64,000 bases of DNA, from positions 1-64,000 of the forward strand of contig NZ_DS264344.1 of NCBI RefSeq assembly GCF_000153925.1, read 5' to 3'. Under the pieces are notes generated by a model. The model was not told the DNA's origin. It made no database searches and saw only the letters and a list, made by a program, of their open reading frames with translations. Origin of the DNA: [Ruminococcus] torques ATCC 27756 (lineage in GTDB: Bacteria; Bacillota; Clostridia; Lachnospirales; Lachnospiraceae). The number at the start of each line of letters is the position of its first letter. Position 1 is the stretch's first letter. Made by a program: the position numbers and the translations under genes. Positions 7,027-54,150 of this stretch are shown one piece after another.

Positions 7027-7845
7027 ATGAAAGAACGCTTGGATGTATTACTTGTAAAAAGAAATCTGGCGGAGTCAAGGGAAAAGGCAAAAGCGATCAT
7101 TATGTCCGGAAATGTTTTTGTGGAGGGACAAAGAGAAGATAAAGCGGGAAGCACGTTCCCGGAAGAAGTCAGTATCGAAGTTCGGGGGCATACACTTCCG
7201 TATGTAAGCAGAGGCGGCTTGAAATTAGAAAAAGCGATCGCAAATTTTGATGTCAGCGTAAAAGATAAAGTCTGTACGGATGTCGGTTCTTCAACGGGCG
7301 GTTTTACAGATTGCATGCTTCAAAACGGTGCAAAAAAGGTGTTTGCGATCGATGTGGGACGAGGACAGCTTGATTGGAAACTGAGAAACGACCCGAGAGT
7401 TATCTGCATGGAAAAGACGAATATTCGATATGTGACACCTGAAGATTTGGGAGAAGAAATTGATTTTTCTTCTATTGATGTCTCATTTATTTCGCTTACG
7501 AAAGTATTGGAGCCGATTCGTAATTATTTGGCAAAAGACGGTGAGATCGTAGCTCTTATTAAACCGCAGTTTGAGGCAGGACGGGAAAAAGTAGGAAAAA
7601 AAGGTGTCGTAAGAGAAAAGAGCACACACCGGGAAGTGATTCAGAAAATTATGGATTATGCTATGTCGATCGGTTTCGATCTGTGTGCTCTTGATTTTTC
7701 TCCGATCAAAGGACCGGAAGGAAATATAGAGTATTTGATTCATTTAAAAAAGAGTGAAAATGAGGCCGGTGAAAATCTCGGCGGACTTGATCCTGTTATT
7801 GTTTCAGACAGAGCATTTGAGACGCTGGCAAAGCAGCACGCTTAA
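7027..7845 (+). CDS. tlyA: TlyA family rRNA (cytidine-2'-O)-methyltransferase
   Basis: A protein of 272 residues. The N-terminal S4 RNA-binding domain (KERLDVLLVKRNLAESREKA, about residues 2-60) is joined to an FtsJ/Rossmann methyltransferase domain with SAM motif DVGSSTGGFTDC near residue 88. TlyA proteins methylate cytidines of 16S and/or 23S rRNA; which ones cannot be read from sequence. The older label 'haemolysin A' is misleading. The ATG at 7027 lies 16 bases after the dxs stop with GAAAGG upstream; its place in the dxs-tlyA-nadK-argR-recN run is conserved in Firmicutes. Confidence 0.93.
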   Translation: MKERLDVLLVKRNLAESREKAKAIIMSGNVFVEGQREDKAGSTFPEEVSIEVRGHTLPYVSRGGLKLEKAIANFDVSVKDKVCTDVGSSTGGFTDCMLQNGAKKVFAIDVGRGQLDWKLRNDPRVICMEKTNIRYVTPEDLGEEIDFSSIDVSFISLTKVLEPIRNYLAKDGEIVALIKPQFEAGREKVGKKGVVREKSTHREVIQKIMDYAMSIGFDLCALDFSPIKGPEGNIEYLIHLKKSENEAGENLGGLDPVIVSDRAFETLAKQHA

Positions 7846-9195: not shown

Positions 9196-10872
9196 ATGCT
9201 ACAAAATCTACATGTGAAAAATATTGCTTTGATCGATGAGACAGAAGTAGATTTCGGACAAGGATTGAATATATTGACAGGAGAAACCGGGGCGGGAAAG
9301 TCTATCTTGCTCGGCTCTGTCGGACTGGCTCTTGGAGGAAAGTATAGTTCTGATCTTTTGAGAAACGGGGCGGAAAATGGTCTGGTAGAGCTGACTTTTT
9401 CGGTTGACGACGGACAGATCAGACAAAAACTGGAAGAGATGGATATTATTCCGGATGACGGTATGGTTACTTTAACAAGAAAGTTTACAGGAAGCAGAAG
9501 CATAAGCCGCATTAATGGAGAGACAGTGAATACAGGAAAGTTGAAAGAAGCGGCAGAGCTTTTGATTGACATTCATGGTCAGCATGATAATAAAACCTTA
9601 CTTCAAAGGAAGAATCATTTGGTGCTTCTGGATCTTTTTGGGAGAAAAGAGATTGCTCCGATCAAATCAGAAATGTCAAAATGTTATAAAGAATATCGGG
9701 CGATCTGTAAAAAGGAGGAAGAAACTTCTTTAAATGATGAAGAAAGGCGAAGAGAACTTTCTCTTTATGAATTTGAAGTACACGAGATCGAAGAGGCTGC
9801 TCTTCGGGAAAATGAGGATGAAGAATTAGAGGAAACATACCGAAGGATGACGGAGAGCAGAAAAATCACGGATGCAGTTGCGCAGACTTATCGCTATACA
9901 TGCGAGGACAGTTCGGCAAATGCAGGTGATTGTCTTACTCGGGCGATACGTGCGTTTCGGGAGGCGGCGGAATTTGATGAAGAGGGAGACCGTCTGTGCG
10001 CTCTGCTTATGGATGTGGACAGCCTTCTGAATGATTTTAACAGAGAACTGTCCGAATATGCCTCAAAATTTGAATTTTCAGAAGAAGAGTTCAAAGAGAC
10101 AGAGGAACGGTTGAATCTGATCAATCATTTAAAAGCAAAATATGGAAGTTCTGTAAGTGATGTCCTTGCATATTGCGAATCAAAACGCCATAGAATAGAA
10201 CAGCTTAATGATTATGATGCATATATAAAACAAATTGAAGAAGAGAAAGAAAAAGCGTTAAAAAAAGTAGAACGTGTAACGAAAAAACTTCATGATGTAA
10301 GAAATCGATATAAAACAGTTTTTGCTGACGAAATCTGTATTCATCTGAAGGAATTAAATTTTCTCGATACAAGGTTTGAGATACATTTAAAAGATGCAGG
10401 ACAGTTTAGCGCGAACGGAAAAGACGAAGCGGAATTTTATCTTGCGCTTAATCCCGGCGAGCCTGTAAAGCCGCTTGAGAATATTGCATCAGGCGGAGAA
10501 CTTTCCCGTATTATGCTTGCGATAAAAACGGTTCTGGCAGATGCGGAAGATACGCCGACTTTGATTTTTGACGAGATTGATGCCGGAATATCGGGAGTTA
10601 CGGCAGCAAAAGTCGGAGAAAAACTAAAGCTGATAGGTAAAAGCAGGCAGGTGATTTGCATTACTCATCTTTCACAGATAGCAGCAGTGGCAGACAGTCA
10701 TTTTCTGATTGAAAAATCTGCGGAAAACGAAAGCGTAAAAACAAGGATTCGTCTATTGAACGAAGAAGATTCGGTAAAAGAACTGGCGCGTATTCTGGGT
10801 GGAGATAAGATTACATCCAGTATTATGGAAAGTGCCCGTGAAATGAAAGAAATGGCAAAGAGTGAAATATAA
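9196..10872 (+). CDS. recN: DNA repair protein RecN
   Basis: A protein of 558 residues, an SMC-like ATPase of double-strand break repair. Walker A is GETGAGKSILLGS near residue 31; a long central coiled coil follows (about residues 150-370); the signature is ENIASGGELSRIMLAIK and Walker B is PTLIFDEIDAGISG. A GTG at 9187 directly follows the argR stop, but the ATG at 9196 has AGGTGA about six bases upstream and gives the usual family start (MLQNLHVKNIALIDE). Strong terminator downstream. Confidence 0.95.
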   Translation: MLQNLHVKNIALIDETEVDFGQGLNILTGETGAGKSILLGSVGLALGGKYSSDLLRNGAENGLVELTFSVDDGQIRQKLEEMDIIPDDGMVTLTRKFTGSRSISRINGETVNTGKLKEAAELLIDIHGQHDNKTLLQRKNHLVLLDLFGRKEIAPIKSEMSKCYKEYRAICKKEEETSLNDEERRRELSLYEFEVHEIEEAALRENEDEELEETYRRMTESRKITDAVAQTYRYTCEDSSANAGDCLTRAIRAFREAAEFDEEGDRLCALLMDVDSLLNDFNRELSEYASKFEFSEEEFKETEERLNLINHLKAKYGSSVSDVLAYCESKRHRIEQLNDYDAYIKQIEEEKEKALKKVERVTKKLHDVRNRYKTVFADEICIHLKELNFLDTRFEIHLKDAGQFSANGKDEAEFYLALNPGEPVKPLENIASGGELSRIMLAIKTVLADAEDTPTLIFDEIDAGISGVTAAKVGEKLKLIGKSRQVICITHLSQIAAVADSHFLIEKSAENESVKTRIRLLNEEDSVKELARILGGDKITSSIMESAREMKEMAKSEI

Positions 10873-37579: not shown

Positions 37580-38875
37580 TTAAGCGTTGCTCGCTACTTT
37601 ATCAAGAAGTCTTGCGGAATCCCGCTTTGCTTTTCTTGTTGAGTGAGCGTAAATGTTCATTGTGGTACTGACATCGGAATGTCCTAACAGTTCCTGTACA
37701 TCTTTCGGAGCAGCTCCATTCGAGAGCAGGTTGCTGGTGTAGGTATGTCGTAACTGGTGAAAGTGAAAATCTTCAAATCCTTCCAGCTTTTTTGATACTG
37801 ACCTGCAAGCAATGCCGAGTGTACTCGGCAGTTCCAGACTGCCATCCGGTCTGAGGCAGACAAAGGATATTTCTTTATAATCTGCCGGGACTTCCTGTGT
37901 TCCGTCAAGGTGATAGTATTCATAATACACCCTGTTTTTCACATGCACCTCTTTGTAGTAGTTGCGGTGGTAAAGTTCCCCGTACTGCATCCGGCTTTTC
38001 AGTTGTTCCCGTCTTGCTGCTTTCAATATTTCAGTCAGCGTATCTCCAAAATCAACAATCCTTACTTTCTTTCGCTTGGTCGTTCCAATCACATTTTTAT
38101 GCTTTGCACCGTCGTAACGGATACTTCTTTTAATGGTCAGGCATTGATCTTCAAGGTTGATGTCCTGCCATGTAAGACCACAGGTTTCACCGATGCGAAG
38201 TCCTGCATAATATGCAATCTGAATCGGCAGGATCGCAGGTGGATTTTTCTTTTCCAGATACTTGATAAGTCGCTCATAATCCTCATGTGAAATCGGCTGT
38301 GTGCCATCTTCGACTTCATCATCGGAAAAGAGGTCAACTTCCTCTGCCTGTTTTTTCAGCTTAATATACTGCATCGGATTGAAACTGATTAACTGTTTTG
38401 GAAATACTGCAAAACGGAATGACTGCTGCAACACTGCGGAAAAAGAATGGATATAATCTTTACTGTATCCTTTTCTCACTTTTCCGTCTGGAAATTCGCC
38501 ACCGAATGTAAGCAGATCAAGAAATGCCTGTAAATGTTCGGCAGTAACTGTTTTCAGTTTACGGTCTGCAATCGGGTGTTTCTTAGTGCAACGGATTGCA
38601 CTGAGATAATTTTCCACTGTGCCATTACTGAGTGTTCCGGTTTTCAGTTCTTCTTCTGCCCACATGTCCAGAAGTTCACCTACGGTAAGGTTATCTGCTT
38701 TTGCAACAAATTTCTTATCTTCGTAATCTTCCAGTGCCTTGCGGAGAAGTTTTTCTGTCTCACTTTTGCTTTCGGTTCCGGCATATTCTTTCTGAACCAT
38801 TTTGCCGCTTGCGTCCTCTACATAGAAGCGGTAGTACCATTTCTTTCCTTTCTTTCTAACAGATCCTTTTGCCAT
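37580..38875 (-). CDS. int: Tyrosine integrase of a mobilizable element
   Basis: A protein of 431 residues, minus strand. The N-terminal AP2-like arm-binding segment (MAKGSVRKKGKKWYYRFYVE) is followed by the core-binding domain and the catalytic domain: R in YYAGLRIGETCGLTW, HxxR in FHFHQLRHTYTSNLL, and H/Y in LLGHSDVSTTMNIYAHS. Intact. The start at 38875 is preceded (minus strand) by AAGGAG; the frame is open ten codons further. It belongs with the divergent repressor/excisionase/relaxase set at 38,962-41,481, and differs clearly from the integrase at 35,264. Confidence 0.93.
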   Translation of the reverse strand: MAKGSVRKKGKKWYYRFYVEDASGKMVQKEYAGTESKSETEKLLRKALEDYEDKKFVAKADNLTVGELLDMWAEEELKTGTLSNGTVENYLSAIRCTKKHPIADRKLKTVTAEHLQAFLDLLTFGGEFPDGKVRKGYSKDYIHSFSAVLQQSFRFAVFPKQLISFNPMQYIKLKKQAEEVDLFSDDEVEDGTQPISHEDYERLIKYLEKKNPPAILPIQIAYYAGLRIGETCGLTWQDINLEDQCLTIKRSIRYDGAKHKNVIGTTKRKKVRIVDFGDTLTEILKAARREQLKSRMQYGELYHRNYYKEVHVKNRVYYEYYHLDGTQEVPADYKEISFVCLRPDGSLELPSTLGIACRSVSKKLEGFEDFHFHQLRHTYTSNLLSNGAAPKDVQELLGHSDVSTTMNIYAHSTRKAKRDSARLLDKVASNA

Positions 38876-38961
38876 AATCGTATGTCTCCTTTCGATATCA
38901 GACAATCGGAACTGCTGAAATGCTTCTTGCGTGTAAGTATATCATAACTCCGATTATCTTA

Positions 38962-39591
38962 CTATACCGATTCAGAATCCTCGTACATAACTTCGGATAA
39001 AAGATTTGCAAGCCGTTGTTCTGCTGTTTCCGGTTTCTTGGAATAGAGCCTTACAATATCTGCCATGTCATTCAATGCGTTGACAGTATGGGTGATCTCC
39101 CTGAGAAACATGATCTCGTTATATTCATCATTCGATTCAAACCCCATTACTTTTGCAATGTCCGCTTCTTTGGTATTGCCTTTGTAATTCTTGCAGGCGA
39201 ACTGGAACGAATCCAAAAACAGTTCATATTGTTTCAACATTAACAGCAGTAGGTCTTTGGAAAAAGCATCTTCTGTTTTCGTAAGGTCAAGAGGTAACTG
39301 TTTGAGAATATCCGTCATGGCATCACGAATCTGTAATTCTCTTTTATCCGTAATGTCGGTTTCATATTCGTCCGTTTCCCCTCTGAGCCATTCCACAGAT
39401 ACATGGAGAGCTTCTGAAAGACCTTCCAGCACCATTTTCTTTGTATTGTCAATCGTTCCGGCTTCATATCTCTGAATCGTAGATGCAGTCACACCCATCT
39501 TTTCAGCGATATAAGGCTGTGTCAGATTCAATTCTGTACGGCGCTGTTTTGCCCTGCTACCGATCAGCTTGCGTAATTCTTTATCTTTCAT
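38962..39591 (-). CDS. XRE-family repressor of the mobilizable element
   Basis: A protein of 209 residues. The Cro/CI-type helix-turn-helix lies at residues about 8-62 (SRAKQRRTELNLTQPYIAEK, then GVTASTIQRYEAG). The remaining 140 residues look helical and match no family I can name. The start is placed at 39591 by AAGGAGG on the minus strand; the longer open frame lies upstream of that site. It faces the excisionase gene across a 175-base control region holding two matching palindromes, probably its operators. Confidence 0.87.
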   Translation of the reverse strand: MKDKELRKLIGSRAKQRRTELNLTQPYIAEKMGVTASTIQRYEAGTIDNTKKMVLEGLSEALHVSVEWLRGETDEYETDITDKRELQIRDAMTDILKQLPLDLTKTEDAFSKDLLLLMLKQYELFLDSFQFACKNYKGNTKEADIAKVMGFESNDEYNEIMFLREITHTVNALNDMADIVRLYSKKPETAEQRLANLLSEVMYEDSESV

Positions 39592-39644
39592 GCTGATGTG
39601 CCTCCTTTTTCGGTATGTCATTACTATACCACATAACAAACAAT

Positions 39645-39748
39645 ATTGCAATATGCAATTAAACAATAAACAATATGATTTCGTAATGCTTGACAAGATG
39701 ATATAAACACGCTATACTGACAGCACAAAAGAAATTGCATAATGCAAT
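39645..39748. promoter_or_regulatory. Twin operators ATTGCA-N3-TGCAAT
   Basis: ATTGCAATATGCAAT at 39645-39659 and ATTGCATAATGCAAT at 39734-39748 share both half-sites and a three-base spacer. One lies near each of the divergent starts, as expected for a repressor that controls itself and the excisionase/mobilisation genes. Confidence 0.72.
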
Positions 39749-39766
39749 TTATAAGGAGGTGGTCAC

Positions 39767-39997
39767 ATGACGCAAAGAAAGATTGCCTTATCTATTGAGG
39801 AAGCTGCGGATTATACGGGAATCGGCAGGAACACCCTGAGAAAACTGGTGGAGTGGAAGAAACTTCCGGTATTAAAGGTCGGGAGGAAAGTCCTGATTAA
39901 AACGGATATGCTGGAACTTTTCATGGAAGCCAATGAGGGCAGGGACTTAAGGGATAAAGGAAATGTGAAAGCCGTCACAAGAAACGGTTCCACTTAA
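39767..39997 (+). CDS. Excisionase / MerR-like DNA-binding protein
   Basis: A protein of 76 residues with a helix-turn-helix of the excisionase (HTH_17) type: LSIEEAADYTGIGRNTLRKL, then LPVLKVGRKVLIKTDMLELF. Such proteins bend DNA for excision or act as small regulators. The ATG at 39767 follows AAGGAGGTGG. It is divergent from the XRE repressor and heads the mobilisation genes. A hairpin GGCGGTT / AACCGCC (40001-40022) lies just past its stop. Confidence 0.85.
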   Translation: MTQRKIALSIEEAADYTGIGRNTLRKLVEWKKLPVLKVGRKVLIKTDMLELFMEANEGRDLRDKGNVKAVTRNGST

Positions 39998-40143
39998 AAA
40001 GGCGGTTCCCGAAGAAACCGCCAAAGGTTTTATCAGACCGAAGCCATGATATACCTACACGCAAGCAGATTATACCATGTACTTCGTCTGACAGACAACA
40101 GGAAACTTATGTTTGGTAGAAAAAAGAAAGGACGATGATATTT

Positions 40144-40458
40144 ATGGCAAGATCAACAAAGAGTTATGAGGAGCGTCTGCTCCAGTTGGAAAAAAGAGAA
40201 CAGGAAAGCCTTGAAAAAGCGAAACAGTACGCAGCACAGAAACGGGAACTGAAGAAACGTCAGAAAGATGTGGAAACAAAAAAACGAACCCACAGGCTCT
40301 GTCAGATTGGCGGTGCGGTGGAATCAGTGATTGGTTCTGCGATTGAGGAAGAAGATATTCCGAAGCTGGTCGGCTTCTTAAAAAGGCAGGAAGCAAATGG
40401 GAAATTCTTCTCAAAGGCAATGCAAAAAGAGCCAGTTGCGAATACGGAGGAAGTGTAA
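40144..40458 (+). CDS. Small coiled-coil mobilisation-region protein (DUF3847-like)
   Basis: A protein of 104 residues. A long charged helix rich in Lys, Glu and Arg (SYEERLLQLEKREQESLEKA) comes first, followed by HRLCQIGGAVESVIGS and a short C-terminal helix region. The layout resembles the DUF3847/MobC-like proteins that commonly sit before MobA/MobL relaxases; the role is probably as a relaxase accessory. The start could also be 40135 (two codons and one Phe earlier); neither has ideal spacing from AAAGGA. Confidence 0.65.
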   Translation: MARSTKSYEERLLQLEKREQESLEKAKQYAAQKRELKKRQKDVETKKRTHRLCQIGGAVESVIGSAIEEEDIPKLVGFLKRQEANGKFFSKAMQKEPVANTEEV

Positions 40459-40504
40459 TGCCGGAGGGAGTGGAGTTTCCATTCCCTTCATTGCTTTTTT
40501 ATGA

Positions 40505-40560
40505 AGGGCGCACTTATGGACAACCAGAGGTCGTCCGTATAAGTTTGCCACAGGTGGCAA
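40505..40560 (-). other. Candidate oriT (MOBQ type)
   Basis: On the minus strand an imperfect 8-bp inverted repeat GGACGACC-TCT-GGTTGTCC is followed directly by ATAAGTGCGCCCT (40517 down to 40505). TAAGTGCGCCCT is the nick-region core I recall from RSF1010/R1162-class oriT sites. The repeat extends outward (CTTAT/ATAAG). A second perfect repeat TTGCCAC-AG-GTGGCAA lies at 40545-40560. The relaxase of the matching family starts 230 bases downstream. Confidence 0.68.
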
Positions 40561-40787
40561 CCGGTCTGCGCTAACGCTTGCCGGGCTCGTTCCGTCGGCG
40601 GGCATTTCATGCAGACCTGCTCATGTCGCAGGAGGCACTCTTCGCCAGAGGGGCGCATTCCATGCAGGCTGTTATGCACAGAGCACTCTTACGCAGAGGG
40701 CGTTCCGGCAGATACCATTCTCTTTTACAGGAAATGTTAACTGCCGGAAATCAATGCCGGGTACGGCAGAAAGGGGGGAAACGGATC

Positions 40788-41481
40788 ATGGCGATCTTTC
40801 ATTATACGGTAAAGATTGTCGGACGCAGCAAAGGGAAATCCATCATATCAGCGTCTGCCTATCTCAATGGTGATGTAATGAAAAATGAAGAAACAGGCAG
40901 GATCAGTTACTACACTTCCAAAAGAGAAGTTGTTTATACCAGTTTGATGATGTGTGAAAATGCACCGCAGGAATGGCAGAATGTACCTGCCGAAAATATC
41001 AAACGGTTTCAGAAATCTGTCCGGTATAAAAGGGCAGACAACAAAGAAGTTGTACTGGAGAAATTCAAACTTACTTTTCAGAAACAGTGCTTATGGAATG
41101 AAGTTTTGAAGATTGAGAAAAGTTCAGACGCACAGCTTGGCAGATCGTTTGAGTTCTCACTTCCAAAAGAATGGAATCGACAGGAACAAATTGAATATAC
41201 AACAGATTATATTCAGAAAAACTTTGTGGACAAAGGCATGTGTGCAGATTGGAGCATTCACGATAAGGGCGACGGAAACCCGCATGTGCATTTACTTGTA
41301 ACCATGCGTCCCTTTAATCCCGACCACTCATGGGGAAACAAAGAAGTCAAAGACTGGGAGTTTGTCAGAGATACTGACGGAAATATTGTGGTTGATGAAT
41401 CCCACCCGGACTGGTGGCAGGATAAAAAGAATCCTGACCGTCATGGAATCCGAATTCCGGTATTGGACGAAAACGGTAGAA
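40788..41481 (+). pseudogene. mobA: MobA/MobL relaxase, 3'-truncated
   Basis: The reading frame starts MAIFHYTVKIVGRSKGKS with the ATG at 40788 behind AAGGGGGG. It holds the MobA/MobL nickase domain, including the HUH histidine motif GNPHVHLLVTMRPF. About 231 residues of relaxase remain (VLDENGRT is the last convincing part), after which the frame runs through an IS256-type fragment in the opposite direction and stops at 41549. A full relaxase would have several hundred more residues and often a primase or helper domain. It is probably non-functional. Confidence 0.85.
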
Positions 41482-41741
41482 CCATAACGACTATTCACTC
41501 TTTTTCGCTTATAACCATTGCGATAATCACCGCTATCAGAACGTTGTGATTTTTCATATCCCAAGTGGTCATCCATTTCCGCTTCCATCATCTCTTTGAT
41601 GGTTCCACCAAGAAGATCTTTCAGCGCATCCTGGATATCTTCTGCTGATTGGATATCGTATTCTTTCAAGAGCTGGTGAATGATGTTACGTTTTCCTTCT
41701 GTCATTTGTACTTTGTGTACAGGTTTCTTTTCTCTTGCCAT
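41482..41741 (-). pseudogene. IS256-family transposase, N-terminal fragment
   Basis: Minus strand, from an ATG at 41741 (MAREKKPVHKVQMTEGKRN). It continues through DALKDLLGGTIKEMMEAEMD, then DHLGYEKSQRSDSGDYRNGY and KRKRVNSRYG, the highly conserved N-terminal region of mutator/IS256 transposases. It ends at about 41482, where the relaxase begins on the other strand, so the catalytic DDE core is missing. Bases 41742 to about 41820 are probably the remaining IS end. Confidence 0.88.
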
Positions 41742-41821
41742 AATAAAAGGCCTCCTTATGATAAAATATTTTACCATAGAAGACCTTCTAAAACATTATT
41801 TACAGAAAAAGTTTCACATTC

Positions 41822-42235
41822 TCAAGAAAGTTCTCCTGTCGGGTATGGAATATTAAAGTAGCTGTATTAATTCCATCAGTTTTATTTGGATTAGTACATA
41901 TTATAGGAATGGATTTTTCCATTATAAGTAGCCTGTTGGTTCTTATTGCTGGAACAATGGTGGGAATAATGTTCTCAATGGTTGCTATTGAAAGTGGTTC
42001 TGTTTGGAACAGCGGAATTGTCCATTCACTTTGGAATATTTTAATTATTGGCGGCGGTTTATCAATAAGCGAAAAGGCAGATGAATATTCGGTTATGACA
42101 TATGTACTTGATTCAAAAGACTTTGTTTTCACTGGTGGAGAATTTGGAATTGAATCATCAATTATTGCACTATTAGGTTATGTTATAGTTACTTTAGCAG
42201 CAATATGTATGATTAAGAAAAAAGCAAAAGTGTAA
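41822..42235 (+). pseudogene. CPBP-family intramembrane protease, C-terminal fragment
   Basis: The frame is open across the IS256 end and reads NIKVAVLIPSVLFGLVHIIG and VWNSGIVHSLWNILIIGGG, the second and third metal-site helices of CPBP (CAAX-like/Abi) proteases. The first motif (EExxxR) is lost at the junction near 41,820. The fragment ends normally (TAA 42233-42235) after a last TM helix. An ATG at 41909 is available but would give a product without the active site. Confidence 0.75.
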
Positions 42236-42256
42236 TAAGTATCAAAAAACAAAATC

Positions 42257-42283
42257 CAGTTTGGAGAATTGAAAAAAACGGAA
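42257..42283 (+). repeat. Cassette-joint repeat, copy 0 (degenerate)
   Basis: CAGTTTGGAGAATTGAAAAA and the next few bases match copy 2 at 46,884 with several changes. It lies between the CPBP remnant and the MarR promoter. Confidence 0.45.
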
Positions 42284-42308
42284 TTTACCTATTAAGACAT
42301 ATAAACTC

Positions 42309-42363
42309 TTGACAATAAAGCTCCTATATAGTATGTTTTGAATAAACTACTATATAGGAGCTT
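42309..42363 (+). promoter_or_regulatory. Promoter and 16-bp palindromic operator of the MarR/radical SAM unit
   Basis: TTGACA (42309-42314), 17 bases, TATGTT (42332-42337). AAGCTCCTATATAGTA (42318-42333) is exactly repeated inverted as TACTATATAGGAGCTT (42348-42363). The palindrome spans the region between -35 and -10, the probable start, and the TAGGAG ribosome site, so it could act on DNA (MarR operator) and as an RNA hairpin hiding the ribosome site. Confidence 0.78.
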
Positions 42364-42367
42364 TTGT

Positions 42368-42805
42368 ATGGAAATGAATGGAGGATTTCTTGTCACCAAA
42401 ATAAAACAGCTTGGAGACCGGATTTTCGAGAAGATTCTCAGTGAAAAGAATATTGATGCGTTTAATGGAGCCCAGGGGCGTATTCTTTATGTGCTGTGGC
42501 AGAAGGATGGTATTTCAATCAGGTCACTCTCGACTAAATGTGGATTAGCGATAACATCTCTTACTACGATGCTGGAAAGAATGGAAAATCAAGGGCTGAT
42601 AAGCCGTGTTCAGTCTGAAACGGACAAAAGGAAAACGCTCCTGTTTCTGACTGAGAAAGCACATGCCTTAAAGGGCGAGTACGATTCTGTATCTGATGAG
42701 ATGGGCAGTATTTACTACAAAGGTTTTTCAGAGGAAGAAATTACCCGGTTTGAGGAATGCCTCGACCGCATCAGAAAGAATCTTGAGGAGTGGCAGAAGT
42801 CATGA
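42368..42805 (+). CDS. MarR-family regulator of the radical SAM pair
   Basis: A protein of 145 residues. The winged helix-turn-helix (NGAQGRILYVLWQKDGISIR, then STKCGLAITSLTTMLERMEN) and a DKRKTLLFLT wing are clear. An in-frame start at 42338 lies inside the palindrome; the ATG at 42368 follows TAGGAG. Its stop overlaps the start of the first radical SAM gene (ATGA at 42802-42805), so it is co-translated with the genes it probably represses. The ligand is unknown. Confidence 0.88.
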   Translation: MEMNGGFLVTKIKQLGDRIFEKILSEKNIDAFNGAQGRILYVLWQKDGISIRSLSTKCGLAITSLTTMLERMENQGLISRVQSETDKRKTLLFLTEKAHALKGEYDSVSDEMGSIYYKGFSEEEITRFEECLDRIRKNLEEWQKS

Positions 42806-43491
42806 GTATTTGTATCAAAGATCAGATTCAGAACATGAATATCGTCATTGGCTGCACAGTGGGGTGTACATATTGCTATGCCCGCAACAACGTGAAACGC
42901 TGGCATATGATTGATAATTTCGCTGACCCTGAATTCTTTCCGGGTAAGCTCAAGATGATGGAAAAGAAACGTCCGCAGAACTTTCTTCTTACCGGCATGA
43001 GCGATCTCTCTGGATGGAAGCCGGAATGGAGAGACGAGGTATTTGCAAAGATCCGTGAAAATCCACAGCATCAGTTCCTGTTCCTTACTAAGCGACCTGA
43101 TTTGCTGGATTTTGATACCGATCTGGAAAACGCATGGTTTGGCGTTACGGTGACGAGGAAAGCAGAACGGTGGCGTATCGACGCCCTTCGGAAAAACGTT
43201 AGAGCAAAACATTACCATGTTACCTTTGAGCCGTTATTCGATGATCCCGGCACAGTTGACCTTTCCGGAATCAATTGGATCGTTGTCGGCACCATGACCG
43301 GAGCTCAGAGCAGGAAGATTCATACGGAGCCGGAATGGGCATGGTCTCTGACGGACCAGGCACATAAGCTCGGCATTCCGGTGTTTATGAAGGAAGACCT
43401 TGTCCCTATCATAGGGGATGAAAATATGATTCAGGAAATGCCGGAAGAATTTAATAAAGTGTTAGAGGTACAGAAATCATGGAAGAAGTAA
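42802..43491 (+). CDS. Radical SAM mobile pair protein A
   Basis: A protein of 229 residues. The cluster motif CTVGCTYCYARN (CxxxCxxC, around residues 18-25) would bind a 4Fe-4S cluster and SAM. Downstream motifs (FLLTGMSDLSGWKPEW, FLFLTKRPDLLDF, WFGVTVTRKAER, IVVGTMTGAQSRKIH) resemble the phage Gp37/Gp68 (DUF5131) group of radical SAM proteins. It is coupled to the MarR gene ahead and overlaps the second radical SAM gene by 13 bases. The pair with its MarR recurs on mobile elements; its substrate is not known to me. Confidence 0.85.
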   Translation: MSICIKDQIQNMNIVIGCTVGCTYCYARNNVKRWHMIDNFADPEFFPGKLKMMEKKRPQNFLLTGMSDLSGWKPEWRDEVFAKIRENPQHQFLFLTKRPDLLDFDTDLENAWFGVTVTRKAERWRIDALRKNVRAKHYHVTFEPLFDDPGTVDLSGINWIVVGTMTGAQSRKIHTEPEWAWSLTDQAHKLGIPVFMKEDLVPIIGDENMIQEMPEEFNKVLEVQKSWKK

Positions 43492-44387
43492 TAAATGGAA
43501 TCCTCATTCGTGAGGTGGAAGCAAAGAACATCATGACTAAGTCTAGTCTGCCGGTAGGCGGTTACTCGGTCAATCCCTATGTGGGCTGTACACATGCCTG
43601 CAAGTATTGCTATGCTTCTTTTATGAAGCGCTTTACCGGGCACAAGGAGGAATGGGGCACTTTCCTTGATGTGAAGCATTGGCCGGAAATTAAAAATCCG
43701 AAGAAATATGCCGGACAGCGGGTGGTCATTGGTTCTGTGACAGATGGCTACAATCCACAGGAGGAGCAATTTGGGAATACCAGAAAACTTCTGGAGCAGC
43801 TGATCGGCAGTGACGCAGATATTCTGATCTGCACAAAGTCGGATCTTGTGGTACGGGATATTGATCTGTTGAAGAAGCTTGGACGTGTAACCGTTTCATG
43901 GTCGATCAACACACTAGATGAAAATTTCAAGAACGATATGGATTCTGCTTCGAGCATTGAGCACCGTATCGCTGCTATGAAGCAGGTATATAAGGCAGGT
44001 ATCCGTACAGTCTGTTTCGTATCCCCGGTATTCCCCGGTATCACGGATTTTGAAGCAATCTTTGAGCGGGTAAAGGATCAGTGCGATCTGTTCTGGCTCG
44101 AAAATCTCAATCTTCGAGGCGGTTTCAAAAAGACAATTATGGATTATATCGCCGGAAAATATCCTGATCTTGTACCACTTTACGACGAGATCTATAACAA
44201 GCATAACCGCAGCTACTTTGAAGCACTTGAAGTAAAAGCTGAGAAAATGGCTAAGAAGTATGATTGTGCCTTTGTGGATAATGAAATGCCTTATGGCAGA
44301 GTCCCGCAGGGGCATCCGGTGATCGTAGATTATTTCTATCATGAGGAAATCCGTGGGACAGAGAATACCGGAAAAAGAAATCGCTAA
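43479..44387 (+). CDS. Radical SAM mobile pair protein B
   Basis: A protein of 302 residues. The cluster motif is CTHACKYCYASFMKRF (CxxxCxxC, around residues 36-43). The barrel shows VVIGSVTDGYNPQEEQF, DILICTKSDLVVRDID and TVSWSINTLDENF, a SPL/DUF-like SPASM-less radical SAM layout related to Rv2578c-type proteins. The ATG at 43479 has GAGG upstream inside gene A, and the overlap implies fixed stoichiometry. No peptide substrate or maturation partner gene is adjacent, which leaves small molecule, RNA or DNA as candidates. Confidence 0.85.
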   Translation: MEEVINGILIREVEAKNIMTKSSLPVGGYSVNPYVGCTHACKYCYASFMKRFTGHKEEWGTFLDVKHWPEIKNPKKYAGQRVVIGSVTDGYNPQEEQFGNTRKLLEQLIGSDADILICTKSDLVVRDIDLLKKLGRVTVSWSINTLDENFKNDMDSASSIEHRIAAMKQVYKAGIRTVCFVSPVFPGITDFEAIFERVKDQCDLFWLENLNLRGGFKKTIMDYIAGKYPDLVPLYDEIYNKHNRSYFEALEVKAEKMAKKYDCAFVDNEMPYGRVPQGHPVIVDYFYHEEIRGTENTGKRNR

Positions 44388-44411
44388 CTTCAAGTTTGTA
44401 GAATTAAAAAT
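44385..44411 (+). repeat. Cassette-joint repeat, copy 1
   Basis: Starts with the TAA stop of the second radical SAM gene and contains AGTTTGTAGAATTAAAAAT. It differs from copy 3 (47,646) at one base in 27. Confidence 0.65.
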
Positions 44412-44433
44412 GAAATAAAGTTCCAGTAATCAT

Positions 44434-44466
44434 AGAGTGTATGGATTCAATTCCATATGCTCTTTT
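44434..44466 (+). terminator. Terminator after the radical SAM pair
   Basis: AGAGTGTATGGA (44434-44445) pairs with TCCATATGCTCT (44452-44463; two G-U pairs), then T residues. Confidence 0.7.
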
Positions 44467-44487
44467 TCTTTACTGAAAAATCTAATG

Positions 44488-44538
44488 TTACGAGTTTCTT
44501 ACGAGTGGTATTTAAAAAACTCGCAAGAAGACTCGTAA
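44488..44538. repeat. Inverted repeat at the 3' end of the AAA ATPase gene
   Basis: Left arm 44488-44506 (TTACGAGTTTCTTACGAGT) and right arm 44519-44538 (ACTCGCAAGAAGACTCGTAA) pair almost fully. It lies 18 bases beyond the stop of the minus-strand ATPase gene and could act as its terminator. Confidence 0.55.
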
Positions 44539-44555
44539 GAGATATTTCGCACTTC

Positions 44556-45752
44556 TTATTCTTGTAGTAACCAATCGGCTATATCGTGAATTTCGATTCC
44601 TTCATAGCTATATAAGGGATGTTTGGTTCTGGCAATAATCATTTTCGGATAAGCATCTCGAATCTGAAGCAGAGGAGAGTATTCTCTCTCAAATGTTTCC
44701 TGCCCGGAAATGTTGTCGCTGACCTGAATATAAATCTTCTCGCTGCCTCTCTGAGCGACAAAGTCGATCTCCTTTTGATAGAGCTTGCCGACATAGACAT
44801 CGTATCCACGGCGAAGAAGCTCGATGCAAACAATGTTTTCATATACTCTGCCATAATCCATATTTCTGCTTCCCAGTATTGCATATCGAATACCGCTGTC
44901 ACACAAATAGAACTTTTCAGAGCTTTCAAGGTATTTCTTACCTCGGATGTCGTATCTCTTAATATCATAAAATACAAAAGCATTGCACAAATACTTAATG
45001 TACTTTCCAACGGTTACATGATTGGTTGGAGTCTCATTTGCTGTCAGTAGCTGACTAACCTTATTCGGAGAAGTCAGGTTGCTGATATTATCCATCAAGA
45101 ACTCGCTCAGACGCTGCAAAACCAAAGTGTCCGGCAGAGCATATTTCTGTACCAAGTCCCTTGTAACAATGGTTTCGTAGACTTCTTTTATATAGTTTGT
45201 TCTGTCTTTTTCGGTTCGATAGGCATAGGAACCTGCTAAACCGCCTTTGATAGCGTACTCATCAAAGAGCTTATCTTTGTCGCTAATATCATCATAAAAT
45301 TGGCAATATTCCTGGAAACTGAAAGGAAACACATGAATTTCAATATAGCGTCCGGTAAACAGAGTTGCCAGATCCGCACTCAACAGGAAAGCATTAGAGC
45401 CTGTTACATAGATGTCGTATTTTCCCTTAGAGTACAGGCTGTTGATTGCCAGCTCAAACTTGGGACACATTTGAACCTCGTCTACAAACAGGTAGTTCGT
45501 TTTGCCTTCTTGATAATGTTCTTCCACATAGGCGTGTAAGGCATGGTATTCCTTGATTTCTTCATACGCTAAATCCATGAAGTCAATGAAGATAATATTG
45601 ATGTTTTCAAAGTTGCTTTTCAGATACGCAATATACGCCTGCATCAGTTTGGACTTACCAGATCGACGAATACCTGTGATGATCTTGATGTCAGGAGTGC
45701 CATTCAGTTCAATGATTCTATCGAGATATTTTGCTCTCGTGATTGTTTTCAT
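44556..45752 (-). CDS. Orphan AAA ATPase with DUF4143 domain
   Basis: A protein of 398 residues, minus strand. Walker A is GIRRSGKSKLM (about residues 27-37), Walker B NYLFVDEVQMCPKFE; a winged-helix middle part precedes a C-terminal DUF4143 nuclease-like region (YENIVCIELLRRGYDVYVGK, EIDFVAQRG). The DVYVGKLYQKEIDFVA part carries the ExD-like residues of a PD-(D/E)xK fold. Such ATPases are common orphans in bacterial genomes with unclear roles. The start at 45752 has GGGGGACT upstream on the minus strand; the longer frame to 45842 is not needed. Confidence 0.85.
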   Translation of the reverse strand: MKTITRAKYLDRIIELNGTPDIKIITGIRRSGKSKLMQAYIAYLKSNFENINIIFIDFMDLAYEEIKEYHALHAYVEEHYQEGKTNYLFVDEVQMCPKFELAINSLYSKGKYDIYVTGSNAFLLSADLATLFTGRYIEIHVFPFSFQEYCQFYDDISDKDKLFDEYAIKGGLAGSYAYRTEKDRTNYIKEVYETIVTRDLVQKYALPDTLVLQRLSEFLMDNISNLTSPNKVSQLLTANETPTNHVTVGKYIKYLCNAFVFYDIKRYDIRGKKYLESSEKFYLCDSGIRYAILGSRNMDYGRVYENIVCIELLRRGYDVYVGKLYQKEIDFVAQRGSEKIYIQVSDNISGQETFEREYSPLLQIRDAYPKMIIARTKHPLYSYEGIEIHDIADWLLQE

Positions 45753-46044
45753 ATAGTCCCCCACTTTCAAAAATTGAAGTTTTTTCATTTTCCGAAACCG
45801 CTTCGTTGTACTTAGTATACTGTCTGCTAAAAGTATATGCAAGATGTCGCTTTCAAAAACACAAATTTTTTTATTTTTTGAAAGCGGAAACTATGTACAG
45901 GCAACCCGATTCTTTACTGAATTTCAAGTAAAATGCAGAAATTTTCGAAAGATTGCTTTTGACCACTGTAAAACATGCTCTGAGCGTTTCGTTATATGAA
46001 GGGATAATTTTTCTTTCATATTTCAAAGAAAAGAGGATAAAGAA

Positions 46045-46342
46045 ATGTCAGAGAAAAGACGTAGAGGAATCTGTTGATAAGATAATCGCCAATCGTATGA
46101 GCAAAGCATATTCTGAATGGAAATCAAATCAAGATACACAGTCATTTAATGAAAATATCGAGAAGGAATACCAGAAGCTTTTGGAAACACTGTCTCCGGA
46201 ACAAGAGAAAGTGCTTACGAAGTATTGTGATGAAATATTTGCCAGCGGAGCAGAAACAGAAGAGTTTTTCTATCGCCTGGGTATAAAGGATGGACTGAGA
46301 TTAAAAAGTACGGTAAAATCTGTATTAGAAATGATGTCGTGA
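46045..46342 (+). pseudogene. Small DUF6809-like protein with a frameshift near its start
   Basis: The frame ending at 46342 reads VEESVDKIIANRMSKAYSEW, later KLLETLSPEQEKVLTKYCDE, and YRLGIKDGLRL near the end, similar to DUF6809-type small proteins. The best start, ATG at 46045 behind AGAGGA (MSEK...), is in another frame and hits a stop; removing one A from AAAA at 46054-46057 joins it to the long frame. The alternative is a poorly supported start at 45953. I read it as a recent one-base insertion, though slippage at the A run could rescue some product. Confidence 0.55.
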
Positions 46343-46367
46343 AATTGGTATTTGAGGAGATAGACTA

Positions 46368-46886
46368 GTGAGAACATACGAGAACAAAGATGAACTTAAG
46401 AACGAGATAAATAAAAGTTTTGCAAAGTACATTTCAGAATTTGATATTATTCCGGAATCATTAAAAGATAAGAGAGTTGAGGAAGTTGACAGAACTCCAG
46501 CAGAAAATCTTGCTTACCAGGTTGGCTGGACAACTCTTGTTCTTAAATGGGAATCAGACGAAAGAAATGGTCTTCATGTCAAGACTCCTTCGGATGATTT
46601 TAAGTGGAATCAGCTTGGCGAATTATATCAATGGTTTACAGATACATATGCTTATCTGTCGTTGCAGGAGTTGAAAGATATGCTGAAAGAGAATATTAAT
46701 TCGATTTATGAAATGATTGACTCATTAAGCGACGAAGAGTTATTCGAGCCCCATATGAGAAAGTGGGCCGATGAAGCAACCAAAACAGCGGTCTGGGAAG
46801 TATACAAGTTTATACATGTTAACACGGTTGCTCCGTTCGGAACATTTAGAACTAAGATTAGAAAATGGAAAAAGATAGCACTATAA
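46368..46886 (+). CDS. ClbS/DfsB family four-helix bundle protein
   Basis: A protein of 172 residues with a GTG start and GAGGAGA upstream. The sequence (DRTPAENLAYQVGWTTLVLK, GLHVKTPSDDFKWNQLGELY, FIHVNTVAPFGTFRTKIRKW) matches the DUF1706/ClbS-DfsB family. The founding member ClbS protects against colibactin by opening its cyclopropane; most homologues have unknown substrates. It follows the frameshifted small gene by 25 bases, and its TAA stop is the first triplet of repeat copy 2. Confidence 0.82.
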   Translation: MRTYENKDELKNEINKSFAKYISEFDIIPESLKDKRVEEVDRTPAENLAYQVGWTTLVLKWESDERNGLHVKTPSDDFKWNQLGELYQWFTDTYAYLSLQELKDMLKENINSIYEMIDSLSDEELFEPHMRKWADEATKTAVWEVYKFIHVNTVAPFGTFRTKIRKWKKIAL

Positions 46887-46912
46887 CTTTCAGTTTGTAG
46901 AATTAAGAAAAT
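46884..46912 (+). repeat. Cassette-joint repeat, copy 2
   Basis: Starts with the TAA stop of the ClbS-like gene and contains CAGTTTGTAGAATTAAGAAA, matching copies 1 and 3 with a few changes. Confidence 0.6.
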
Positions 46913-47019
46913 CGAAACTTACACAATTCTTGAACTCAACACAAACTGCCGTCAGTGTTGTTCCGTTACTCGTTCTTTGCTGGTATCATAGAACCATCAA
47001 ATGAAGGAGGCAACAAGCC

Positions 47020-47373
47020 ATGAATACAGATAAAATCTATGCAGAACAACTCGCAAACGAATATGCACCCAAGGACACCTCCAAGGTGGTCGCTCTTCGC
47101 AAGCTGGATGCAAAAGCCAAGCTTCCCGCAAACGTTTTTACCTACACCTTCGGTATTATCACAGCGTTGGTAGCCGGTGTCGGGATGTGCCTTTCCATGA
47201 AGGTTATCGGCAACGGTAGTACTGCTATGTTTGTTCTCGGCGTGATTGTCGGCATTATCGGGCTGCTGGGTATGGGCGTTAATTACCCCATCTACAAAAA
47301 ATTGCTGGCTCAGGGCAAGCAGAAATACGCTTTTGAAATCATGGAACTGGCAAAAGAAATCAGTGAGAAGTAA
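47020..47373 (+). CDS. Small membrane protein, function unknown
   Basis: A protein of 117 residues with ATG at 47020 and GAAGGAGG upstream. A charged N-terminal segment (about residues 1-35) precedes two TM helices (VFTYTFGIITALVAGVGMCL and FVLGVIVGIIGLLGMGVNYP), and a short cytoplasmic tail (KLLAQGKQKYAFEIMELAKE) follows. Similar proteins have been labelled dihydropteridine reductase without clear basis; I would not use that name. It is followed after 28 bases by a TetR-like fragment, perhaps its former regulator. Confidence 0.7.
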   Translation: MNTDKIYAEQLANEYAPKDTSKVVALRKLDAKAKLPANVFTYTFGIITALVAGVGMCLSMKVIGNGSTAMFVLGVIVGIIGLLGMGVNYPIYKKLLAQGKQKYAFEIMELAKEISEK

Positions 47374-47401
47374 ACAAAAACACGAAAGAAGGTGGGAATG
47401 A

Positions 47402-47668
47402 TTGAATAGATCAGAAAGCAGATATTTTGCTACTGCAGCCAGAATGGACGAAGCCTTTCTGACACTTCTGGCAAAAAAAGATTTTGAGTATATTACAGTC
47501 AAAGAAATCTGTGAAGTAGCAGAGGTCAATCGTTCCACCTTATATCTTCACTATGAAACGATGTCAGACTTCCATTACATATGTTACAGGTGTGATTCAG
47601 CAGTGTGTAAAAATGCCACAAAGCGAAACAATGAACGCTGTTTGATAACTTCAAGTTTGTTGAATTAA
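47402..47668 (+). pseudogene. TetR-family regulator, N-terminal fragment
   Basis: From a TTG at 47402 behind GGTGGGA the frame encodes a TetR helix-turn-helix (ARMDEAFLTLLAKKDFEYIT, VKEICEVAEVNRSTLYLHYE). The match stops at about 47577. The next 30 residues are unrelated and run into repeat copy 3, so the ligand-binding domain is gone. Confidence 0.75.
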
Positions 47669-47672
47669 AAAT
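47646..47672 (+). repeat. Cassette-joint repeat, copy 3
   Basis: TAACTTCAAGTTTGTTGAAT and following bases, one change from copy 1. It follows the TetR fragment and precedes another regulator fragment. Confidence 0.62.
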
Positions 47673-47719
47673 CAGAAGAAAGTCCTTACAAACGGCGTCC
47701 AACACAAAAGAGGACCTGG

Positions 47720-48028
47720 ATGACAGTGCCGGAAATGGGAAAGCTGCTGGGATTAAAAAAGACAGATCGATACTGGCTGGTGCATAAAAATGTTTTTGAA
47801 TCAAAAGAGATTGCCGGAAAGATACGAATCAATATTGCCAGCTTTGAAAAATGGTACGCCAATCAGATTAAATATCATAAAGTTACCGGAGAAGAATCAG
47901 GGAAAGAATTAAAATCCTGGTCCTATTCCGTTAAGGAAGTCGCAGATCTGCTGGGGGTTGATGATTATCTTGTTTATGAATTACTCAAGAAAAATCAAAT
48001 AGAACAGGTACATATCTGGATACCGTAG
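47720..48028 (+). pseudogene. Helix-turn-helix protein fragment of a conjugative element
   Basis: A frame of 102 residues with two excisionase-like DNA-binding segments (TVPEMGKLLGLKKTDRYWLV; WSYSVKEVADLLGVDDYLVY). The end (HIWIP) looks like an abrupt junction rather than a natural C-terminus, and a different regulator tail starts there. I take it as a remnant, although expression cannot be excluded. Confidence 0.6.
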
Positions 48029-48264
48029 CAGCATCCACAGATCAGGCAGAACTGAAAACAGTACAGGACTTTCTGGATCGTATTGAGAATCAGGAATTGT
48101 ATCATGTGCTGATCACCGTGGACAGGCTTACCCTTCAGATCGTTCTGATGAAGATCCAGGGGTATAGCACTCATGAAATAGCCAGGTATCTGAAGATTAC
48201 CGAAAAGGCGGTTTACAGGCATATGGACAGGCTGAAAGAAAAAGTGAAGAAGATCTTCGAGTAG
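48008..48264 (+). pseudogene. Sigma-70 region 4-like regulator, C-terminal fragment
   Basis: The frame reads TVQDFLDRIENQELYHVLIT, then LTLQIVLMKIQGYSTHEIAR and YLKITEKAVYRHMDRLKEKV before a TAG at 48262-48264. The last part is a sigma region 4 type helix-turn-helix as found in small sigma-like regulators on Tn916/Tn1549-type elements. There is no start codon or ribosome site, so only the C-terminal part remains. Confidence 0.65.
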
Positions 48265-48280
48265 TTCATGATAATCACAA

Positions 48281-48316
48281 AGCAGGGTGTGAGAACAAAC
48301 TCCACCCTGCTTATCA
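48281..48316 (+). terminator. Hairpin upstream of the exporter cluster
   Basis: AGCAGGGTGTGAG (48281-48293) pairs with CTCCACCCTGCT (48300-48311), leaving one bulged base. The T tail is weak (TATCATTT). Confidence 0.5.
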
Positions 48317-48429
48317 TTTATTAGAAAAAATGAAACTTTTGTCAAAACCAGTATTTGAAAATTTTATCAGTAATAAAGTGCAGAATGCTGTTTGGATTGC
48401 TATTTTTATGCAACTATTTCTTGTTGCTC

Positions 48430-48486
48430 TTGACAAAATAATTTTTAGAGATTAAACTTATAACAGTGTTATATATCACTGTTATA
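48430..48486 (+). promoter_or_regulatory. Promoter and palindromic operator of the TetR/ABC cluster
   Basis: TTGACA (48430-48435), 17 bases, TAAACT (48453-48458). TATAACAGTG (48459-48468) and CACTGTTATA (48477-48486) are exact inverted repeats with an eight-base spacer, just at the transcription start. This is a likely operator for the TetR protein that follows. Confidence 0.72.
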
Positions 48487-48492
48487 TAGGAG

Positions 48493-49116
48493 GTGTGCAA
48501 AATAAACGGAAATGGAACGACTTTAGAAAATATCCACCGGGCAGCGAAAGCAGAATTTTTAGAAAAAGGATATAAAGACGCTTCTCTGCGGAATATTGTG
48601 AAATCCGTGGGAATGACTACCGGAGCCTTTTACGGATATTATAAAAGTAAAGAAGAACTTTTTGAAGCCATCGTTGGTGAGCATTACGAATATATTCTCA
48701 AACGTTTTATAAAGGCACAGCAGGAGTTTGCCGAACTACCAGCTGCCCAGCAGCCGGAAGTCATGAGTGACATTTCGGGGCTTTGTATGTACGATATGCT
48801 CCATTATGCGTACGAACATTTAGAGGAATGTAAACTGATCCTCTGCTGTTCGGAAGGAACAAAATTTGCCAGGCTAATTGATGAAATGGTGGAGATTGAA
48901 GTGGAAGGGACTCATGCCTATCAGGAGGTTTTAAGGAAGCTTGGAAGGCCCTCTCCGCATATCGATCCTTCGCTGGAGCATATTCTGATCACCGGAATGT
49001 TTCATACCTTTTTTGAATTGATCATCCACGAAATGCCGCTCAAAGATGCCGAAAACTACGTCAGAGAAATGCGCGCCTTTTATACAGCGGGATGGATGAA
49101 AATTATGGGGCAGTAA
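48493..49116 (+). CDS. TetR/AcrR-family regulator
   Basis: A protein of 207 residues. The N-terminal helix-turn-helix is clear (AAKAEFLEKGYKDASLRNIV, then GMTTGAFYGYYKSKEELFEA); the rest is the helical ligand-binding domain, with a His/Cys-containing centre. The start is doubtful: the GTG at 48493 overlaps the AGGAGG ribosome site, and no in-frame ATG lies nearby, so the true start may be an unusual codon a few triplets on. It precedes the ABC genes by 110 bases and probably represses them through the palindrome upstream. Confidence 0.85.
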   Translation: MCKINGNGTTLENIHRAAKAEFLEKGYKDASLRNIVKSVGMTTGAFYGYYKSKEELFEAIVGEHYEYILKRFIKAQQEFAELPAAQQPEVMSDISGLCMYDMLHYAYEHLEECKLILCCSEGTKFARLIDEMVEIEVEGTHAYQEVLRKLGRPSPHIDPSLEHILITGMFHTFFELIIHEMPLKDAENYVREMRAFYTAGWMKIMGQ

Positions 49117-54024: not shown

Positions 54025-54034
54025 AAACAAAAAG

Positions 54035-54150
54035 ATATCTTCAGGGCAGGGTGAGATTCCCTACCGGCGGTAAAGCCCGCGAGCCGAGAGGCATGATCCG
54101 GTGAGATTCCGGGGCCGACAGTACAGTCTGGATGGAAGAAGATGATAGTA
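54035..54150 (+). promoter_or_regulatory. FMN riboswitch (RFN element)
   Basis: The canonical conserved blocks are present in order: CTTCAGGGCAGGGTGAGATT, CCCTACCGGCGG, GCCCGCGAGCCG, GATCCGGTGAGATTCCGGGG, CCGACAGTACAGTCTGGATG and the closing GAAGAAGAT. FMN binding would favour the downstream terminators and lower expression of the rib genes. Confidence 0.96.

Follow-up and report, generated by a model that had tools for sequence, protein, structure and literature searches.

A radical SAM mobile pair with its MarR regulator as a probable site-specific gene cassette in [Ruminococcus] torques, with a possible role in DNA repair

In the first 64,000 nucleotides of contig NZ_DS264344.1 from [Ruminococcus] torques ATCC 27756, hereafter called the window, a gene for a MarR family regulator is followed by the genes of two different radical S-adenosylmethionine (SAM) proteins, referred to here as A and B. 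Comparison with related loci indicates that these three genes and their promoter very probably form a mobile, site-specific gene cassette. The protein families are already catalogued by name as the NCBIfam radical SAM mobile pair (TIGR04470, TIGR04471 and TIGR04472), under model names that mention neither a cassette nor a DNA glycosylase. The cassette nature, the core site at the cassette ends and a link to the DNA glycosylase Fpg look new: the literature searched, thin on subscription journals, gave no account of any of them, nor of the reaction of the pair, which an earlier annotation made from the sequence alone (the first-pass annotation) had called undescribed. We propose, at roughly even chances, that the unit is a repressor-controlled two-enzyme module for the repair of DNA lesions that spreads as a cassette.

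Near-constant boundaries and changing flanks

Scanning named genomes yielded 271 confirmed relatives of A, of which the best 80 loci were kept (individual loci are given by L numbers). Hosts of A-bearing loci include Lachnospiraceae, other Clostridia, Erysipelotrichaceae, Treponema, Collinsella and others. For the boundary test, 10.5 kb of the window (38001-48500) were compared by blastn with the fetched loci. After exclusion of two self-copies, 55 loci with at least 91% identity were available, 51 belonging to the 80, three to viral contigs and one to a plasmid record. Similarity started between 42245 and 42303 in 54 of the 55 loci, 30 of them at 42245-42259 and 24 further in, lacking the first bases; in L050 it started at 42611. 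On the right side, it ended at 44381-44409 in 51 loci, that is, in every case where the contig continues, the remaining four being contig ends. The conserved unit measures about 2.1 kb.

Both cassette ends share the core AAYTTCMAGTTTG (TTCMAGTTTG), at which the flanking sequences change. In an alignment anchored on the core, the left flanks, 28 of them distinct, have GAYAAATTCCAGTTT in common and carry little information outside it; the alignment holds 29 rows, one of which (L062) belongs to another cassette. For the right flanks, 30 of them distinct, the shared part is CTTCCAGTTTG with a weakly conserved GAAYTGA behind it, and again little information lies outside. When 152 candidate sites were compared all against all, the 3′ end of the cassette was joined to 29 right partners and the 5′ end (31 copies) to 27 left partners, and four further left and four further right clusters also changed partner at the core. 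This set includes weak pattern matches, and the count of 28 and 30 flanks is the stricter one.

The 2.74 Mb genome of the strain contains four cores (up to three mismatches), all on the forward strand and all within the window (Table 1), and no match to the reversed pattern. Among 299 Lachnospiraceae genomes, the close form of the core (up to one mismatch) was present at 25 sites in 21 genomes, again with no reversed match, and 15 other genomes or records yielded 19 sites in eight of them and one reversed match (up to two mismatches). A same-strand stop codon of an open reading frame (ORF) precedes 20 of the 26 core sites in stretches L226-L249, or 18 of 24 if two places seen twice are merged, against 53 of 600 random places. 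The exact core also occurs in six stretches of viral contigs, five of which look unlike the cassette site. Judged by these sequence comparisons, there is little doubt that the MarR-A-B unit is a mobile site-specific gene cassette. Its near-constant boundaries and many distinct flanks bear out the self-contained mobile unit of the first-pass annotation.

Table 1. Features of the MarR-A-B locus and its surroundings in the window
Feature	Position	Strand	Remarks
Tyrosine integrase	37580-38905	-	
Mutator/IS256-type N-terminal fragment	41331-41777	-	
Whole predicted mobile cassette	42251-44397	+	promoter and MarR-A-B, from left core site into right core; blastn boundaries, differing flanks
Left core recombination site	42251-42272	+	AAAATCCAGTTTGGAGAATTGA
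Sigma-70-like promoter	42309-42337	+	TTGACA-17-TATGTT; consensus match; conserved 5′ of MarR in other loci
Probable MarR operator	42317-42364	+	inverted repeat across the -10, arms AAAGCTCCTATATAGTA and TACTATATAGGAGCTTT 14 bases apart
MarR family regulator	42368-42805	+	TIGR04472; ATG start; 293.5 bits, cut-off 240
Radical SAM protein A	42802-43491	+	TIGR04471; Pfam DUF5131 (PF07505); 427.3 bits, cut-off 355
Radical SAM protein B	43479-44387	+	TIGR04470; fold like spore photoproduct lyase; 603.6 bits, cut-off 410
Right core site	44386-44407	+	AACTTCAAGTTTGTAGAATTAA; at the stop codon of B
Terminator-like hairpin	44434-44463		beyond the right boundary of the unit (about 44397)
DUF1706 gene (PF08020)	46368-46886	+	neighbouring cassette gene, just 5′ of third core
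Third core site	46885-46906	+	at the stop of the DUF1706 gene
Fourth core site	47647-47668	+	at the end of a short TetR-like ORF
Excisionase-like gene	47720-48028		
FMN riboswitch	54033-54147	+	116 bits, Rfam

Relation to integrons

Same-strand arrays of genes ending at core sites, as found in the window, L032, L043, L062 and L069, are reminiscent of integron gene cassettes, with which the system also shares sites mostly just behind stop codons and a promiscuous exchange of neighbours. Such an array could be an integron remnant, i.e. a cluster of attC sites lacking an integron integrase (CALIN), served by an integron integrase in trans. In support of this, the AAC..GTT layout of the core resembles, in our own reading, the simple site of integrons, and an integron integrase is present in Treponema socranskii, a carrier of the cassette. 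This was the single one of 23 genomes or records with an integron integrase above the cut-off; broken pieces were found in T. parvum and T. porcinum. Matches to the integrase model at E ≤1e-5, mostly weak hits to tyrosine recombinases, occurred in 20 of the 23 and in all 14 controls. The genome of the window lacks an integron integrase above the cut-off of 265 bits and has 12 weaker matches, reaching about 60 bits at most among the matches listed. Pairing between the upstream flank and the core was no better than in shuffled sequences (mean z about 0 over 38 distinct flanks, five viral-contig core matches that look unlike the site being left out), and the repeats of the intI region of T. parvum are longer, resemble classical attC sites in our reading and differ from the core. 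The interpretation of the cassette ends as attC hairpins was dropped on these two grounds, and the Treponema intI was rejected as partner of the cassette, which lies far from it in both T. socranskii and T. parvum.

The unit differs from integron cassettes in that its core is short and lacks an attC-type stem, in that it brings a promoter and repressor of its own, and in that its host has no integron integrase above the cut-off. For Firmicutes, IntegronFinder 2.0 reports one complete integron and a few CALIN (PMC9024848). An origin of the arrays as integron remnants appears unlikely to us, and the exchange system, as it presents itself in these genomes, is not a plain integron. No integrase common to the cassette neighbourhoods was found with three queries; the tyrosine integrase of the window (at least 70% identity) lies near the cassette only in L046 and L078, with a fragment in L064.

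The three genes and the pairing of A and B

The window proteins surpass the curated NCBIfam cut-offs by 53 (MarR), 72 (A) and 194 bits (B) and are encoded next to each other, which confirms their earlier identification as a radical SAM mobile pair with its regulator. Because of these margins, and because the three-gene unit recurs in many genera, the locus is more than a chance arrangement. A also exceeds the gathering cut-off of the Pfam model DUF5131 (109.6 against 28.9 bits), and B is a Radical_SAM protein by profile with a weak likeness to spore photoproduct lyase (SPL). As described in the first-pass annotation, the genes overlap by 4 (MarR/A, 42802-42805) and 13 bases (A/B, 43479-43491) behind one promoter, and both enzymes carry the CxxxCxxC motif, here extended to CxxxCxYCY, with C22, C26 and C29 in A (233-residue form) and C37, C41 and C44 in B. 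The insertion sequence and integrase genes nearby were recovered as well (Table 1). Only the terminator was misassigned to the unit: the hairpin lies beyond its conserved right end and is therefore attributed to the right-hand neighbour.

Where the contig allows a judgement, B stands beside 112 of 115 copies of A (78/78, 12/13, 4/4, 17/19 and 1/1 in partly overlapping groups). The three copies without an intact B are L213, L216 and L120, where B is broken at its 5′ end. Sequence distances of A and B from 20 loci are strongly correlated (r = 0.913; none of 2000 permutations as high). A is above its cut-off in 18 and B in 28 of the 299 Lachnospiraceae genomes, and A in 9 of 100 genomes of a smaller Lachnospiraceae draw and 2 of 398 in a phylum sample that included the genome studied here. 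Of the 28 genomes with B, 11 speak against an obligate pair, having no match to A (E 1e-50). They comprise seven lineages with a solo B (L258-L264), one contig end (L267) and three partial deletions of A (L265, L266 and L268). In the latter, B is kept and part of A is gone, in two cases through an in-frame junction, suggesting that the cell can do without A or pays a cost for it. Solo-B loci, too, score above the cut-off of TIGR04470, and B is thus described too narrowly by the name 'pair'. The first-pass annotation had reasoned that A and B usually occurring apart would speak against a joint system; A is with B almost throughout, whereas B is found without A in these genomes.

Regulation and operon variants

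A scan of promoter-like sites returned 6 compared with 8.9 in shuffled sequences, a count not above chance, so that the promoter call rests on its position and its conservation across loci. Overlapping the -10 region is an inverted repeat that had escaped the first-pass annotation, with arms of 17 bases each (42317-42333 and 42348-42364); an alternative, longer MarR form with a TTG start at 42338 would begin inside it. In the general form CTCCTATATAGTAG - 7 to 13 bases - CTACTATATAGGAG, both arms are present in 72 of 81 MarR loci, in 29 distinct versions. At 5 of 18 positions, both arms have changed in a complementary way; mismatched pairs occur too, most of them at the innermost position. The palindrome is missing in nine loci (L050, L088, L090, L096-L099, L107 and L119), some of which are truncated or divergent. 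Autoregulation by MarR binding to this palindrome is likely.

MarR is present in 70 of the 80 named-genome loci. Elsewhere its place is taken by other regulators, mostly together with a further gene: Rrf2 and a cupin (Rrf2-cupin-A-B in the L100 group, L117 and L118), HxlR and a flavin-reductase-like protein (HxlR-flavin reductase-A-B in L003 and in L268, where part of A is lost), HxlR and a SnoaL-like protein (HxlR-SnoaL-B-A in L192), or AraC and a metallo-β-lactamase-fold (MBL) hydrolase (AraC-MBL-A-B in L112 and L126, the MBL gene of L126 being split into two ORFs), to which a cupin is added in L194 (AraC-MBL-cupin-A-B). TetR is the regulator in L093 and L094, and no regulator gene was recognised at the L080 locus. 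In L119, a flavin reductase gene lies directly upstream of MarR. The absence of further enzyme genes beside the pair, noted earlier, thus holds for the cassette of the window and fails for the family as a whole. In L115-L118, L100 and L103, the unit, with either MarR or Rrf2-cupin, is located beside phage-tail-like genes in a moron-like manner, as read from the translations.

Relatives of B and the link to Fpg

Beyond the solo-B lineages, eight loci with a weaker B (L276-L283) were additionally read. In 6 of 15 loci with a relative of B and no A, a MarR gene comes first and B is followed by the gene for Fpg or what is left of it. The gene orders are MarR-B-Fpg (L263 and L264), MarR-DUF1848-B-Fpg-HhH-GPD (L262) and MarR-DUF1848-nitroreductase-B-Fpg (L259); Fpg is decayed in L261, and B is shifted in L283. 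B of these loci is 58-62% identical to B of the window, in L283 in two pieces of 49 and 70%. In L280 (B 48% identical), the gene for an alkyltransferase-like DNA-binding protein (PF01035) begins at the base after the stop of B. Phylogenetically, B of the pair is placed next to these relatives. Like the cassette, the MarR-B-Fpg operons have a MarR gene ahead of the gene for a B-like protein, and 3 of the 15 loci also encode another CxxxCxYCYA protein (DUF1848) where A stands in the cassette. They differ from it by Fpg or HhH-GPD in place of A. The DUF1848 protein of the MarR-(DUF1848)-B-Fpg operons, which are found in several Lachnospiraceae genomes, ends in CxxxCxYCYA and could likewise be a radical SAM protein of the SPL-like kind.

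By VIA, the predicted model of B is closest to SPL, whereas the Foldseek ranking does not favour SPL. Against the SplB model TIGR04070, B reaches 21 bits with a cut-off of 400; SPLs above this cut-off in relatives score 438-529 bits. B differs from SPL by its second radical SAM partner and, in the alignment, by S23 at the cysteine of the clostridial 'SCKPSA' and V87 near 'ATSD', so that neither hydrogen-donor cysteine is present at the presumed donor positions. A and B both carry CxxxCxYCY, in which a tyrosine follows the third cysteine as in SPL, and C37, C41, C44 and Y45 are invariant in B of 20 loci. In SPL, this tyrosine serves as a radical relay (PMC3742179). By VIA, A matches generic radical SAM and TIM-barrel folds, SuiB (9.0), SPL (8.7) and viperin (8.7) being tied; Foldseek gave no match for A at E ≤0.001, and sequence searches of the PDB gave no convincing match for A or B (best E 0.018 and 0.031).

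SplB-like radical SAM genes are also described in other repair operons (PMC3765255). Since DNA-repair genes share operons with relatives of B, repair of damaged DNA may be what the pair does. DNA, one of the targets considered in the first-pass annotation, is favoured by the Fpg-linked relatives and by the likeness of B to SPL, and we regard the chances that it is the substrate of B as evenly balanced. A direct reversal of the lesion by B is a more doubtful proposition.

A working model and competing explanations

In our model, a recombinase supplied from elsewhere, perhaps of the tyrosine type, would cut out the cassette as a circle, which would then be inserted at core sites, mostly right behind the stop of a same-strand gene. 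MarR bound to the palindrome would keep the promoter shut and would be released by an inducer, for which a reactive electrophile or a DNA-damaging compound is the probable candidate. B would then bind damaged DNA and reverse or rearrange a base lesion by means of the 5′-deoxyadenosyl radical, with A as a smaller second radical SAM partner that might widen or complete the reaction. A more far-reaching version, put forward tentatively, is that gut Lachnospiraceae and their neighbours run a non-integron cassette exchange. It would rest on a double-stranded core of about 13-22 bases and a trans-acting recombinase, at least one of its cassettes would bring a promoter of its own, and this cassette, among the most travelled, would be a MarR-induced radical SAM pair, a two-enzyme relative of SPL, which directly reverses a DNA lesion otherwise handled by glycosylases such as Fpg.

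The cupin, MBL, SnoaL and flavin-reductase genes inside A-B operons of other lineages fit a common chemical stress and keep alive the alternative that A and B detoxify a small molecule. The regulator (MarR, HxlR, Rrf2 or AraC) would then sense a xenobiotic, a quinone or another reactive electrophile that A and B convert, with the additional proteins as helpers. Regulators of these types often sense electrophiles. The helper genes differ by lineage while A and B stay constant, as would be expected for a shared stress rather than a shared substrate, and Fpg next to 6 of the 15 solo-B relatives, in one case joined by an HhH-GPD glycosylase, also speaks against detoxification. We consider it unlikely. 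The same glycosylases point to DNA rather than to tRNA, rRNA or a cofactor, which A and B might modify, for instance as an antibiotic response; no recurrent RNA-modification or cofactor gene was recognised beside A-B in the operon variants read, making such a function very improbable. A role in phage defence or counter-defence, suggested by DUF5131 (phage Gp37/Gp68) being a family of candidate defence genes, by matches of A to the PADLOC candidates PDC-M30B and PDC-M41B at about 1e-29 in a comparison that covered A, B and MarR, and by the copies among prophage tail genes (L115-L118), is equally remote, since these models, as far as the match shows, describe other DUF5131 proteins, from which A is set apart as the separate family TIGR04471 with B at its side, and since a MarR-repressed operon with Fpg-linked relatives would be unusual for defence.

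Neighbouring cassettes in the array

The window contains a second cassette gene, encoding a DUF1706 protein, between the right and the third core (Table 1). A near-identical DUF1706 gene in L240 ends at the same core and has a different right neighbour. Since the ClbS-type proteins that protect from colibactin belong to the DUF1706 family (PF08020), the array may collect DNA-protection genes. The short TetR-like ORF (47402-47668) ends at the core at 47647, as if truncated by cassette insertion or exchange. L069 has the order ORF-site-GyrI-like-site-DUF3784-like-site-MarR-A-B (the DUF3784 match being below the Pfam cut-off), and in L246 the GyrI-like and DUF3784-like genes are present in the other order with a third ORF in between. 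We read this change of order and the new neighbour of DUF1706 in L240 as probable cassette shuffling. The long same-strand gene run of an E. eligens plasmid was considered as an array and rejected, as it contains a single core site (up to two mismatches).

Several further observations concern genes and sequences around the sites. L065, L066 and L070, from different genera, have the same right flank after the core (at 7597, 5105 and 7650, respectively), which includes two hairpin-like stretches, CCCTTTAGGAACTAAAGGG and a second one, without an Rfam match. In general, the FMN riboswitch was the only Rfam match in the window, and none was found in the four loci scanned. A GyrI-like gene in the intI region of T. 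parvum (L150, 13159-13830) is by eye closely similar to that of L069 (4392-5024), and gene content may cross between the integron and the new cassette system. On pSRC6, a mobilizable plasmid of Selenomonas ruminantium (L113), MarR-A-B is followed by an annotated chloramphenicol acetyltransferase gene (9973-10623).

Implications

In the literature searched, the pair has been called mobile without a mechanism or a reaction, and the present data make both of them testable. From the core site, one would expect circles and empty sites detectable by polymerase chain reaction, and from the Fpg link together with the SPL-like fold, a DNA lesion as the substrate. If the model is true, common gut anaerobes exchange genes via a cassette system that integron surveys would overlook, and one of its cassettes would extend DNA repair by radical SAM enzymes beyond spores.

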